A program made the translations under genes and the position numbers. 20,816 bases of DNA from Campylobacterales bacterium (GTDB taxonomy: Bacteria; Campylobacterota; Campylobacteria; Campylobacterales; Sulfurimonadaceae), in contig JAFGVR010000095.1 of assembly GCA_016937915.1 (NCBI GenBank), positions 1-20,816 on the forward strand. Reading direction: 5' to 3'. Position 1 is the stretch's first letter, and every line of letters begins with the position of its first letter. A model generated the notes under the pieces. That model saw only the letters and a program-made list of their open reading frames with translations. It was not told where the DNA came from and searched no databases. Below, piece after piece: positions 1,203-15,734 of this stretch.

Positions 1203-3083
1203 CTAAATTTTTTTATTCTTTGAATCTATCTTGATATATATATGAAGTATTTCTATAGCAGCAGGGGTGATGCCACTTATTTGCATCGCAGCTTGTAGAG
1301 TTGGTGGGTTAAATTTTTCTAGTTTTTCAACTATCTCTTTTGAAAGACCACTCACTTTTTTAAAGTCAAAATTCTCAGGGATAGCGATTTTAAGATACTT
1401 TTTCATCTTCTCTATCTCTTCGCTTTGTTTATCTATATAACGAGCGTATTTACCCTCTACAAGTATCTCATCTTTTATATACTCATCATATTTTGATAAC
1501 TCTGGAACGATGCGTAGCATCTTCTCAACATCAAAACTTTTTCTAGCTACAAGTTGCTGAGCTGTTGAGATATCTTTTATAGGAGCTTCACCAATGCTCT
1601 CTAGCAGTGCATTAAACTCTTTGTTAGGTGTAAAACGGGTCTCTTCTAAAAGTTTTGCACCCTCTTTTATCTGAGTATCTTTTAGTTTTACCCTCTCATA
1701 AGTCTCATCATCTATAAGCCCAAGCTCATGCCCATAGTGACTAAGGCGAGTATCTGCACTCTCCTCTCTTAAAAGCAGTCTATACTCAGCACGACTTGTA
1801 AACATCCTGTAAGGCTCTTTTGTCCCCTTAGTTACCAAATCATCTATAAGTACCCCTATGTAAGCTTCATCACGGCGAAGAACTAAAGGCTCTTTGTTTT
1901 GAAGACTAAGAGATGCGTTAATCCCCGCCATAAGCCCTTGAGCAGCAGCCTCTTCATAACCAGTAGTTCCATTTATCTGACCAGCCAAGTAAAGCCCACT
2001 CACTTTTTTAGTCTCAAGTGAGTGTTTAAGCTCTCTAGGATCTACAAAGTCGTACTCTATAGCGTAACCATAACGAACAACTTTTGCATTTTCCATCCCC
2101 TTAACTGAGCGGATCATATCTCTTTGAACTTCAGGTGGAAGTGATGTACTCATCCCATTTATGTAGCACTCAGTGTTATCCATAGTTTGTGGCTCTATGA
2201 AAATGTGGTGTCTGTCTTTATCACAAAAGCGGTTTATCTTATCTTCGATGCTAGGGCAATATCTAGGTCCTAAACCCTCTATCTGACCTGTAAAAAGTGG
2301 AGCTTGGTAGAAGTTTGATTCTATGATGCTATGAGTTGTTTCATTTGTATATGCGATGTAACAAGGGAGTTGTTTTTTTTCAGCTCTAAATTTTTCTCTG
2401 TTGGTACGAAAACTAAAAGGGTTTGGAAGCTCATCTCCCCCTTGCTCCTCCATCACTGAAAAATCTATACTTGATGTATCTATCCTAGCACAAGTTCCTG
2501 TCTTTAGTCTTCCGATGCTAAGTCCACACTCTTTTAACGAATCACTAAGATGCTCACTGCTTTGCTCACCAAAGCGACCACCCACTTGTTTGATGCTACC
2601 TATGTGGATAAGCCCTTTTAAAAATGTTCCAGAAGTTATGATAACTTTTTTTGCACCATATTCATTTAAGAGGTTTGTTTTTACACCGACAACTTTTCCA
2701 TCTTCTACTTTTATAGACTCAACCACCTCTTGAACTAGATCAAGATTTGGAGTGTTTAAAATTGTGTTTCTAGCTATCACACGATACTTGTCCATGTCTA
2801 TCTGAGCACGACTTCCACGAACTGCTGGACCTTTTGTGTGGTTTAATATTCTAAACTGTATCCCAGCCTCATCAGTTATAAGCCCCATCTCACCACCAAG
2901 TGCATCAAGCTCACGAACCAAATGCCCCTTTGCAAGTCCACCAATAGCAGGGTTACACGATGTAGCACCAACATTTTCTGCAAGCATAGAGATCAAAAGT
3001 GTAGCGTTTCCCATCCTAGCAGATGCAAGGGCTGCCTCAACTCCAGCATGACCCCCACCCACTACTATTACATCATAATTCAT
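1203..3083 (-). CDS. mnmG: tRNA uridine-5-carboxymethylaminomethyl modification enzyme MnmG (GidA)
   Basis: FAD-dependent subunit of the MnmE-MnmG complex, which installs the (carboxymethyl)aminomethyl group on C5 of the wobble uridine of several tRNAs, in the cytoplasm. The N-terminus carries the dinucleotide-binding motif [10 protein letters not shown], followed by the family motifs TSCNPAIGG and [13 protein letters not shown]. The central region has [12 protein letters not shown] and [10 protein letters not shown], and the second flavin region has YGYAIEYDF and [21 protein letters not shown]. The C-terminal helical domain (about 550-626) ends in [11 protein letters not shown], typical of the family. 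Length is about 626 aa against 629 in E. coli, so the protein is complete. I start at the ATG at 3083, which gives [11 protein letters not shown] and has a GTGGACAG Shine-Dalgarno-like stretch. A GTG at 3095 would add four residues but has no ribosome-binding site. It is the only confident minus-strand gene here and appears monocistronic. Confidence 0.98.
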
Positions 3084-3110
3084 ATATCTGTCCACTGTTA
3101 AATTAATCGA

Positions 3111-3119
3111 ATTTTAGCA
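3111..3119 (-). promoter_or_regulatory. Candidate extended -10 for mnmG
   Basis: Read on the minus strand this is TGCTAAAAT, an extended -10 (TGn plus TAAAAT), about 28 bases before the ATG at 3083. There is no convincing -35. In Campylobacterota sigma-70 promoters often lack a conserved -35, so its absence is not disqualifying. Confidence 0.4.
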
Positions 3120-3153
3120 TATTTTAGGTACAATTTTTGCGTTACAATTGGTG

Positions 3154-3182
3154 TTGACTTCTTTCGGTGACGGGTGTATAAA
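3154..3182 (+). promoter_or_regulatory. Strong sigma-70 promoter of the small-peptide gene
   Basis: TTGACT (3154-3159) and TATAAA (3177-3182) are separated by exactly 17 bases, matching the consensus at five of six positions in each hexamer. A full -35 is unusual in Campylobacterota and makes this the best promoter in the window. Transcription should begin near 3188-3190, giving a leader of about 40 nt before the ATG at 3229. Confidence 0.7.
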
Positions 3183-3201
3183 AAGGGAATGGAGTTCAGA
3201 G

Positions 3202-3227
3202 GGTATCTCCAAGAAGGAGGATACACC
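3202..3227 (+). promoter_or_regulatory. Leader hairpin that hides the Shine-Dalgarno sequence of the small-peptide ORF
   Basis: The leader segment GGGTATCTCC (ending at 3210) can pair with GGAGGATACACC (3216-3227). GTATC pairs with GATAC and TCC with GGA, with single-base bulges, and outer GG pairs with CC; the loop is AAGAA. The 3' arm contains the ribosome-binding site AAGGAGGA (3214-3221). When folded, the mRNA should therefore be poorly translated, a common property of type I toxin messages. Confidence 0.5.
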
Positions 3228-3228
3228 A

Positions 3229-3285
3229 ATGAAACTAATCATTGTAGTAATGGTTTTAATCGTTTTCGCCGAACGGTTATACTAA
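3229..3285 (+). CDS. Ibs-like hydrophobic 18-residue peptide, candidate type I toxin
   Basis: Short ORF encoding MKLIIVVMVLIVFAERLY. An ideal Shine-Dalgarno (AAGGAGGA, 3214-3221) lies seven bases before the ATG, and a near-consensus promoter lies about 40 nt further up. These signals are much better than those of any other non-gene ORF here. The peptide opens with MKLII, continues as an uninterrupted run of Ile, Val, Leu and Met, and ends in Tyr. That resembles the 18-19-residue Ibs peptides of E. coli, inner-membrane toxins silenced by the antisense Sib RNAs. The residues AERL before the final Tyr differ from the Ser-rich ending of Ibs. It stands alone between mnmG (divergent) and a small operon. 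The toxin role is inferred from resemblance and layout. It could instead be a leader peptide or a small membrane regulator. Confidence 0.6.
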   Translation: MKLIIVVMVLIVFAERLY

Positions 3286-3295
3286 AAATATAACT

Positions 3296-3350
3296 ACAGA
3301 GAGCTACAAACTCTCTGTTACCATTGCTACAATTGTAACATAAATTTTTT
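3296..3350 (+). terminator. Hairpins and T-run ending the small-peptide transcript
   Basis: A perfect 8-bp stem, ACAGAGAG (3296-3303) with CTCTCTGT (3311-3318), begins ten bases after the peptide stop codon, with a 7-nt loop. A second, overlapping stem pairs TGTTAC (3316-3321) with GTAACA (3335-3340) and is followed four bases later by T6 (3345-3350). The first stem lacks a T-run and may protect the RNA 3' end. The second is the better terminator but has a 13-nt loop. Confidence 0.45.
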
Positions 3351-3390
3351 AAAAAATATTATTAAGCAATATGTTATTAAGGTTATTATT

Positions 3391-3600
3391 ATGTCAACAA
3401 AAGATTTATTTAAAGATTATGTACCAGAAGTTATAGAGTATGACCCTGCTGTTGATGGTGGGCAAGAGTTTAAAGTTAGAGAAGATAGACTAAATGAAAA
3501 AGAGGATCTTTTAGAGAAGATGCGTCAAGCAAAGTCAGATGCTAAAGGTAACCAAACCACTTTTAGACTAAACATCAGAACTGAAAACGAAAAGAAATAA
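3391..3600 (+). CDS. Small charged conserved-looking protein upstream of riboflavin synthase
   Basis: A 69-aa soluble protein that I do not recognise as a named family. It starts MSTKDLFKDYVPEVIEYDP and is strongly charged, with a central Glu/Arg/Lys-rich helix (about 25-50: REDRLNEKEDLLEKMRQAK). It has no Cys, no His and no membrane segment. The start has only a weak AAGG-type ribosome-binding site (about 3378). The stop codon TAA overlaps the AAGG that serves the next gene, and ribE starts nine bases later, so the two are probably co-transcribed and translationally linked. Codon use matches the neighbouring genes, which supports a real gene. No function is proposed; a link to flavin metabolism would rest on position alone. 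Confidence 0.7.
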   Translation: MSTKDLFKDYVPEVIEYDPAVDGGQEFKVREDRLNEKEDLLEKMRQAKSDAKGNQTTFRLNIRTENEKK

Positions 3601-3608
3601 GGTAGATT

Positions 3609-4220
3609 TTGTTTACAGGACTTATAAGAGAGATAGCTAGTGTAAAATCTTTAGCTGGCTCAAAACTAACCATAAAAGCAAAACACAAAGCAAAACTAGG
3701 TGACTCCATAGCTATAAACGGAGCATGTTTGACCGTCATAGATGTTTTAAATGATGGATTTACAGTTGAGCTATCCCCTGAGAGTCAAAAGCATCTAGCT
3801 ATGGAAAACTATAAAGATGAAGTTCACATAGAACCAGCTATGATGATGGGTGATAGGTTTGAGGGGCATGTTGTCCAAGGGCATGTCGATGCTATAGGGG
3901 TAGTAGAAGATATAAAAAACAATGGAAACTCTTACGATGTTTTTATAACCATAGATAAAAAATTTATCCCTTACATAGTCCCTAAAGGCTCTATCACCAT
4001 AGATGGTGTGAGTTTGACTGTAAATGATGTTATGAGTGATAAATTTAGACTAACTATCATCCCACACACTATGAAAGAGACTTTGTTTAAAAACTATAAA
4101 AAAGGCTCTAGAGTAAATGTTGAGACCGATATGTTTGCCAGATATGTGCATCATATGTTAAAAAAAGATAAAGAAACATTAGACTGGGAAACTGTAGATA
4201 AAATAATCTCTCTTTATTAA
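3609..4220 (+). CDS. ribE: Riboflavin synthase, alpha chain
   Basis: Catalyses the dismutation of two 6,7-dimethyl-8-ribityllumazine molecules to riboflavin and a pyrimidinedione, the last step of riboflavin synthesis, in the cytoplasm. The 203-aa protein has the diagnostic N-terminus MFTGLI and two repeated lumazine-binding barrels, about 1-90 and 91-190. The repeat is visible as GDSIAINGACLTV in the first half and KGSITIDGVSLTVN in the second; HVVQGHVDAIG begins the second barrel. The Cys of GACLTV, present only in the first repeat, is the conserved catalytic-site cysteine. The start codon is TTG at 3609, required to give MFTGLI, with AAGG at 3599-3602 overlapping the upstream stop. Length is normal for the family (about 200-215). 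It follows the 69-aa gene as the second member of a two-gene unit. A weak 5-bp hairpin (4241-4255) lies after the stop. Confidence 0.97.
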   Translation: MFTGLIREIASVKSLAGSKLTIKAKHKAKLGDSIAINGACLTVIDVLNDGFTVELSPESQKHLAMENYKDEVHIEPAMMMGDRFEGHVVQGHVDAIGVVEDIKNNGNSYDVFITIDKKFIPYIVPKGSITIDGVSLTVNDVMSDKFRLTIIPHTMKETLFKNYKKGSRVNVETDMFARYVHHMLKKDKETLDWETVDKIISLY

Positions 4221-14711: not shown

Positions 14712-15734
14712 ATGTATAAAATTTCACAACGCAGATATTTAGGAAATAAAAACTCAATACTCCCATTTATAGATGAGATTATACAAAATGAGATAGGTGA
14801 GTTTTACTCCCTATGCGATATATTCTCTGGGACAGGTGTAGTTGGGGAGTATTTTAATACAAGTGATAGAAAAATCATCTCAAATGACCTACTTTATCAC
14901 AACTACATCTCCCTTAGTGCATACCTCAATCCTGAACCATTTGACGAACAAAAACTTACAAAAATTATAGATAATTTTAACTCCTTAGAGATTAATGAGG
15001 ATAACTATTTTTCTATAAATTTTGGAGATAGATACTACTCAAAAAATACAGCAAAAAAGATAGGATATATAAGAGAGGAGATAAAAGAGCTTTTCGTAAA
15101 TGGTTTGATAAACCGTAAAGAGAAAGATATACTCATCACATCTCTCATATACAGTATGGACAAAATTGCAAATACCGTTGGGCATTATGATGCATACATA
15201 AAAAAAGATATAAGAAAAAATGAACTTACAATGGGGATGTTAAATATAGATCTTCAAAGAAATCAACATAATAAAGTTTATAATAAAGATGCAAACTTAT
15301 TAGTACGAGATATAGAGTGTGACATCTTATACCTAGATCCACCCTACAACTCTAGACAATACTGCGATGCTTACCATCTACTTGAAAATGTTGCACTTTG
15401 GCAAAAACCAGAAGTTTTTGGTGTAGCAAAAAAGTTTGATAGGACAAAACTAAAAAGTGATTATTCAAAATCAGATGCAGCAAAAAGTTTTGATGATCTT
15501 ATACAAAATGCAAAATGCAAATATATCCTTTTCTCCTACAACAACATGGGAAACAAAGGAAACTCAAGAAGTAACGCAAAGATAAGTGATGAAGATATAA
15601 TGAAAACCCTTCAAAAACGGGGTAAAGTTAAAGTTTTTGAAAAAGAGTATAAAGAGTTTAACGCAGGAAACACAAAAGTTGGAGATAACAAAGAGAGGGT
15701 ATTTTTTGTTAAGGTATCTAAATTTTTGTATTAA
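14712..15734 (+). CDS. Solitary D12-class N6-adenine DNA methyltransferase
   Basis: A 340-aa DNA methyltransferase that transfers a methyl group from S-adenosylmethionine to the N6 of adenine. It has the alpha-class order of motifs: an N-terminal motif X region RRYLGNKNSILPFI (7-20), the SAM-binding motif DIFSGTGVVGEYF (36-48), a target-recognition region in the middle, and the catalytic DPPY at 209-212 (LYLDPPYNSRQYCDAYH). This is the D12 (Dam/DpnM/FokI-like) family. The recognition site cannot be read from the sequence. No restriction endonuclease gene lies beside it, so it may be an orphan regulator or a type II system remnant. AGGAGA sits nine bases before the ATG. The 81-bp gap upstream is very AT-rich and holds possible TAAAAT boxes but no convincing promoter. 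Base composition is no different from the neighbours. Confidence 0.92.
   Translation: MYKISQRRYLGNKNSILPFIDEIIQNEIGEFYSLCDIFSGTGVVGEYFNTSDRKIISNDLLYHNYISLSAYLNPEPFDEQKLTKIIDNFNSLEINEDNYFSINFGDRYYSKNTAKKIGYIREEIKELFVNGLINRKEKDILITSLIYSMDKIANTVGHYDAYIKKDIRKNELTMGMLNIDLQRNQHNKVYNKDANLLVRDIECDILYLDPPYNSRQYCDAYHLLENVALWQKPEVFGVAKKFDRTKLKSDYSKSDAAKSFDDLIQNAKCKYILFSYNNMGNKGNSRSNAKISDEDIMKTLQKRGKVKVFEKEYKEFNAGNTKVGDNKERVFFVKVSKFLY

Follow-up and report, generated by a model that had tools for sequence, protein, structure and literature searches.

The window, meaning the whole stretch of 20,816 nt analyzed here (contig JAFGVR010000095.1, from a Campylobacterales bacterium of the Sulfurimonadaceae), contains an 18-codon open reading frame (ORF) between mnmG and ribE. 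The ORF encodes the hydrophobic peptide MKLIIVVMVLIVFAERLY and is flanked by RNA pairing arms and, on the opposite strand, by a promoter-like motif. The features of the locus, each with the evidence on which it rests, are listed below; permutation counts refer to the swapped-partner test described further on.

3129..3134, plus strand: predicted -10 (TACAAT) for the toxin mRNA, which should begin at about 3141 (sequence; words in the leaders)
3147..3163, plus strand: 5' arm of helix H0, facing the ribosome-binding site (RBS) (covariation, 0/20000 permutations; inverted repeat of 17 nt at 76%)
3163..3170, plus strand: leader arm of helix H1, pairing with 3266-3273 (0/20000 in 52 copies; 7/20000 in Sulfurimonas)
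3203..3224, plus strand: H3, a local hairpin masking the Shine-Dalgarno (SD) sequence, alternative to H0 (two pairs changed on both sides)
3214..3221, plus strand: SD sequence AAGGAGGA (sequence; seven bases to the ATG at 3229)
3229..3285, plus strand: toxin-like ORF, 18 codons, ATG at 3229 and TAA at 3283-3285
3241..3254, plus strand: 5' arm of helix H4, codons 5-9 (0/20000; G-U versus A-C counts)
3266..3273, plus strand: 3' arm of H1, codons 13-15 (covariation)
3296..3318, plus strand: H5, hairpin of the 3' UTR (eight pairs, five changed on both sides in a 16-sequence alignment)
3320..3333, plus strand: 3' arm of H4 (covariation; G-U versus A-C counts)
3332..3340, minus strand: predicted extended -10 (TGnTACAAT) of an antisense RNA (invariant columns; 38/52 copies)
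3200..3326, minus strand: putative antisense (Sib-like) RNA (SIB_RNA match and drop in G-U pairs; the 3' end is a guess)

A 69-aa ORF without a Pfam match lies between the locus and ribE (3391-3600) and has relatives at 63-67% identity at two other loci (L105 and L110). Elsewhere in the window, the gene at 14712-15734 encodes an adenine DNA methyltransferase of the D12 class (Pfam E 4e-30) and also gives a weak, sub-cut-off match to the ScaI endonuclease.

The original prediction described an ORF of 18 codons together with its signals, i.e., TTGACT (3154-3159), a 17-nt spacer, TATAAA (3177-3182), and an SD sequence, and all of these are present as described. Among 200 genomes of the Sulfurimonadaceae, a DNA search matched 17 at E<1e-7, including that of the window, and 60 when the limit was relaxed to E 0.1. 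Fifteen of the 17 aligned loci have the 18-codon ORF; of the other two, one is a codon short (L018, identical to L059, which was excluded from alignments A1 and A2) and one runs past the Tyr codon (L019, identical to L055). We then used R1, a covariance model of the locus built in this analysis, to collect 87 matches. Two were dropped as lying opposite a better match (L041 on the minus strand, L040 on the plus strand), and the remaining 85 represent 83 distinct places, with L133 and L078 each contributing a second copy of the same place. Loci L060, L064, L066, L080, L082, L083, L084, and L095 stand outside this set. A peptide of 16-20 residues is encoded at 80 of the 83 places (start codons ATG 60, GTG 18, TTG 2), the exceptions being L055, L079, and L121; the recurrence of the same frame in homologous loci places the ORF beyond chance. 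The family profile approximates M(R/K)L(L/I)(I/L)(I/V)LVVLMVLAxPLY. The pN/pS ratio was 0.44 in the ORF frame versus 2.12 in frame +2, and lay below all values obtained from permuted columns (mean 0.84, minimum 0.48, n = 60). We conclude that the 18-codon ORF is genuine, is conserved across homologous loci, and is subject to coding selection. Its product, a hydrophobic membrane peptide, is probably a self-poisoning toxin, a role that we infer.

The promoter proposed upstream of the ORF did not withstand comparison. The TTGACT and TATAAA words are not conserved in alignments of the homologues and lie between conserved leader arms, around the leader arm of H1; the pair was rejected as a promoter since it sits in transcribed leader. 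With transcription driven from this pair, the mRNA would lack the H0 and H1 arms, whose covariation would then be hard to explain. A promoter scan of 2600-4200 found six promoter-like sites, compared to 5.8 in shuffled sequences, and did not list this pair. The arm at 3147-3154 covaries with the initiation region and that at 3163-3170 with codons 13-15, which puts the expected start upstream, near 3141. Among 52 non-redundant copies, 25 leaders contain a -10-like word on the plus strand between -120 and -71 (shuffles: mean 6.5, maximum 13, n = 200), and in most Sulfurimonas copies this word falls at -96 to -106.

Long-range pairing was assessed by comparing each arm's score with its own partner to its score with partners swapped from other copies, over 20000 permutations. 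The 52 non-redundant copies were picked from 82 rows according to the length of the leader and the 8-mers shared between copies, and the Sulfurimonas and Helicobacter groups were tested without L059 and L092. Own partners scored higher than swapped partners for H0 (5' end with SD and start codon, 18.97 versus 13.73), H1 (leader with ORF end, 15.17 versus 12.64), and H4 (middle of the ORF with the 3' UTR, 25.40 versus 15.33), with 0/20000 permutations reaching the observed value in each case. The same count was obtained for all three helices in Helicobacter and for H0 and H4 in Sulfurimonas, where H1 gave 7/20000. Four control pairs of regions were null (18135, 14198, 13700, and 7554 of 20000), and a fifth, the 5' end with the 3' UTR, gave 16/20000 over all copies but 1897 and 9580 when each group was taken separately. 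In the window, H0 includes eight perfect pairs over the start codon (3147-3154 with 3223-3230). Its length varies, with 16-18 contiguous pairs in 6 of the 52 copies and as few as 5-6 in others, and H0 is short or missing in several copies (e.g., L040 and L045). When tested by duplex energy, H1 was weaker (24/20000 in the sense strand, 3/20000 in the antisense strand), and the two strands were not told apart.

In an alignment of 16 sequences, 90.3% of the cells in H3, H4, and H5 can pair and 12 pairs are changed on both sides; none of 500 shuffles reached either value. Of 200 shuffles of region 3154-3330, 199 fold less stably than the actual sequence (z -3.14). In the swapped-partner test, H3 gave 2/20000 for all copies, 39/20000 for the Helicobacter group, and 3360/20000 for the Sulfurimonas group, and it does not appear in minimum-energy folds. 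A role for H5 in terminating the sense RNA was rejected, as a T-rich tail follows it on the minus strand only.

The kinds of mismatch tolerated in H4 indicate the strand in which it acts. Where one RNA has a G-U pair, its complement has A opposite C. G-U pairs far outnumber A-C clashes in H4, so the fold is selected in the toxin mRNA. The 16-sequence alignment has 24 G-U and no A-C, and in 48 of the 52 copies (the other four fell below the H4 threshold and were left out) 61 G-U and 5 A-C occur across the outer eight positions, compared to 8 and 3 across the inner six. The inner half, where G-U pairs are rare, is shared with an antisense RNA that would start about seven bases past its -10, so that a start near 3325 is suggested. 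In the core alignment of 16 sequences, no invariant stretch is longer than AATTGTA, the complement of the minus-strand -10. The extended -10 occurs on that strand in 38 of the 52 copies (shuffles: mean 4.6, maximum 12, n = 200) and is positioned for a putative antisense gene over the ORF and RBS. This conserved motif predicts an antisense RNA from about 3325. Overall, comparison of the copies shows the coding frame, H0, H1, H4, and the opposing -10.

We next surveyed the distribution of the locus. R1 detected it in 29 of 135 Sulfurimonas genomes at E 0.01 and, across the phylum, in 30 of 397 genomes: four Sulfurimonas, 24 of one Helicobacter genus (g30), and two others (L092 and L095). At E 0.001, 29 of the 34 g30 genomes carry between one and seven copies. 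These are often in tandem, with 14 of 19 intervals between neighbors spanning 257-304 nt (full range 227-687). The genome of the window, a Sulfurimonas genome that is 62.93% complete, has one full copy. The copy in L092 (G434, genus g23, family f5), MRLIIILILVAVVATPLY, is a lone one outside Sulfurimonadaceae and Helicobacter; it looks real, and its leader-ORF pairing is very stable (-33 kcal/mol). At L095 there is no such peptide and the match overlaps a longer open frame; this match was taken as chance, as was a partial match of 18.2 bits in a Winogradskyella stretch from the pattern scan (L116). Searching phages and plasmids with the window's sequence gave no match at E 0.01, and a Helicobacter query matched one plasmid. 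This copy, MKAFLIVVILVVILTQPLY (L137, 1544-1707, NZ_KM583812.1), lies in an unannotated stretch of the mobilizable H. pylori plasmid pUM096, near a type II toxin gene of the YafQ family. Decayed copies were also observed: L055 has lost its stop codon, L059 has a shortened ORF, L064 has an insertion-like interruption, and in L079 the start codon has become ATA. In a Sulfurimonas metagenome-assembled genome, CRISPR-like direct repeats spaced every 60 nt (RF01317, just below cut-off) adjoin a toxin locus (L053, 2225-2912).

This distribution and the mRNA structure bear on whether the peptide is a toxin at all. It may instead be a regulatory or structural small membrane protein, non-toxic and made from an mRNA with the same folds; conservation by itself is no proof of harm. 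This explanation is unlikely given the closed mRNA, the overlapping antisense promoter, the tandem paralogues, and the decayed copies described above, all features typical of type I toxin loci. The antisense RNA could also be the functional product, as a trans-acting sRNA, with the ORF a relic; there is precedent in NikS, which lies opposite aapB according to the excerpted text of PMC8322730. That the frame is under selection and that H4 is selected in the sense RNA make this a distinctly improbable account. Finally, the ORF could act on the 69-aa gene and ribE downstream of it, as their leader peptide or attenuator. This would suit the position of the locus between mnmG and ribE in the window, L043, and L055, but is most improbable of all and is disfavored by variable gene context, as ribE occurs within the 3-kb stretch at just 14 of 31 Sulfurimonadaceae loci, the locus follows ribE in 11 of these 14, Helicobacter copies occur in tandem, and one copy is on a plasmid.

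We therefore return to the toxin and its relation to Ibs/Sib. Like Ibs/Sib of E. coli, the locus combines a hydrophobic peptide of 18-19 aa that starts M(M)KL and ends in Tyr, a hairpin after the stop codon, a predicted antisense RNA across the ORF and RBS, and tandem copies. All five E. coli K-12 Ibs peptides match the family profile beyond composition: IbsA to IbsE were outscored by 65, 45, 14, 41, and 1, respectively, of 50000 shuffles of their own sequence. The ends contribute much to this fit, which is weaker for positions 3-17 only (IbsE 215 and IbsD 8004 of 100000). No Rfam family matches in the window at the gathering threshold. Below it, SIB_RNA (RF00113) aligns with 3211-3353 on the minus strand at 21.4 bits, versus a cut-off of 56; of 4227 families, none scores better on 3050-3450. 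The alignment extends over the full length with start and stop codons in register, and it is the top hit in the whole genome of the window (E 0.048). None of 18 relative genomes has a SIB_RNA match over the cut-off, and four of their 41 sub-threshold matches fall on the 33 R1 loci, all on the antisense strand. About 0.005 such coincidences are expected (41 matches and 33 loci of about 290 nt in 37 Mb, two strands). The remaining 29 of these 33 loci gave no match to SIB_RNA, and neither did 20 related loci scanned together at E<=1.

Other comparisons set the locus apart from Ibs/Sib. R1 did not find ibsD/E, its best hit there having 7.2 bits (E 0.92). Neither H0 nor H4 was detected in the five K-12 ibs loci, with scores of 9-13.5 for H0 (19.0 window, 13.7 swapped partners) and 14-17 for H4 (25.4 window, 15.3 swapped); the score of an H1-like pairing there was 12-18.5. 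Because the Rfam cut-off was missed, R1 misses ibsD/E, and H0 and H4 went undetected in K-12, we do not file the locus as a member of Ibs/Sib. With four antisense coincidences against 0.005 expected, and 29 loci lacking a match, common descent with Ibs/Sib is somewhat likely rather than established. The conserved peptide gene, the conserved opposing promoter motif, and the weak SIB_RNA likeness on the other strand nevertheless lend support to the originally proposed Ibs-like reading of the peptide gene.

It is quite probable, on comparative grounds, that the locus is a chromosomal type I toxin-antitoxin system, in which the mRNA would be born locked and, once opened, be silenced by a Sib-like RNA. 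A plus-strand mRNA from about 3141 would encode the 18-aa hydrophobic peptide, which, if made, may, like Ibs, insert into and depolarize the inner membrane of the cell that produces it. As the SD and start codon emerge, the 5' arm of H0 would pair with them and close the mRNA at birth, and the second leader arm (H1) would clamp codons 13-15 during transcription. The 3' UTR, when completed, would take codons 5-9 as its partner (H4, enclosing H5), and H0 would form again over the initiation region. Opening, perhaps by end trimming or processing, would then expose the ribosome site, and the minus-strand RNA from about 3325, covering the hairpin, ORF, and ribosome site, may silence the opened mRNA by forming a duplex. 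Minimum-energy folds of the growing transcript contain H0 when it ends at 3231-3262, H1 when it ends at 3275-3320, and H0 together with H4 and H5 when it ends at 3335-3345. H0 and H1 alternate in these folds, which were predicted by a program that draws no pseudoknots. At each of eight transcript lengths, 11-15 of the 18 initiation bases (3214-3231) are paired. The strong SD word that was originally noted is present, but is predicted to be paired and not freely accessible. A helper helix predicted with the H1 intermediate (3173-3179 with 3221-3227) showed no covariation (8881/20000).

By analogy, the locus would work like Ibs/Sib and aapA/IsoA. The excerpted accounts of aapA/IsoA in Helicobacter pylori describe a membrane peptide, an antisense RNA, long-distance closure, and transient SD-masking structures (PMC6733600, PMC8322730); for aapA3, transient SD-masking hairpins and long-distance pairing keep the mRNA shut (PMC6733600, in excerpt). 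The present locus resembles this system in having a toxin mRNA with long-distance pairing, in that H0, H1, and H4 covary, and closure would follow by inference. It differs in that the SD is masked from the 5' end here and from the 3' end there: pairing of the initiation region with the 3' UTR, the aapA-type masking, gave 7554/20000, versus 0/20000 for pairing with the 5' end. Compared by length alone, the peptide has 18 aa, versus the 30 aa given for AapA1 in the excerpt of PMC8322730. Alternative or pseudoknotted folds of the toxin mRNA also appear in the excerpted descriptions of timP/TimR and tisB/IstR (PMC11228461, PMC7708055); unlike timP, where the excerpt has the pseudoknot needed for translation, pairing here covers the RBS and ORF. 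To our knowledge, the peptides of timP/TimR and tisB/IstR differ from this one.

Type I toxins are easily missed because their peptides fall below the length used by gene callers. Relatives of Ibs outside the enterobacteria may have been mentioned before. In titles and opening lines of abstracts, our literature search found no Ibs-like toxin reported for Sulfurimonas and no account of the Helicobacter peptides; it did not extend to Fozo et al. (2010), T1TAdb, or Arnion et al. (2017), and an earlier sighting is possible, above all of the Helicobacter copies. Whether the loci form an Ibs-like superfamily of Campylobacterota, with an mRNA folding relay from H0 through H1 to H4 and the antitoxin promoter in the 3' arm, so that peptide, mRNA fold, and antisense RNA would all draw on most of the coding sequence, seems to us evenly balanced. 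R1 recognizes a group of loci of this kind in Sulfurimonas and Helicobacter, and the locus would link the enterobacterial Ibs/Sib kind to Campylobacterota. It leads to the prediction of a toxin mRNA that would be silent while it is transcribed, its own 5' end masking the ribosome site.
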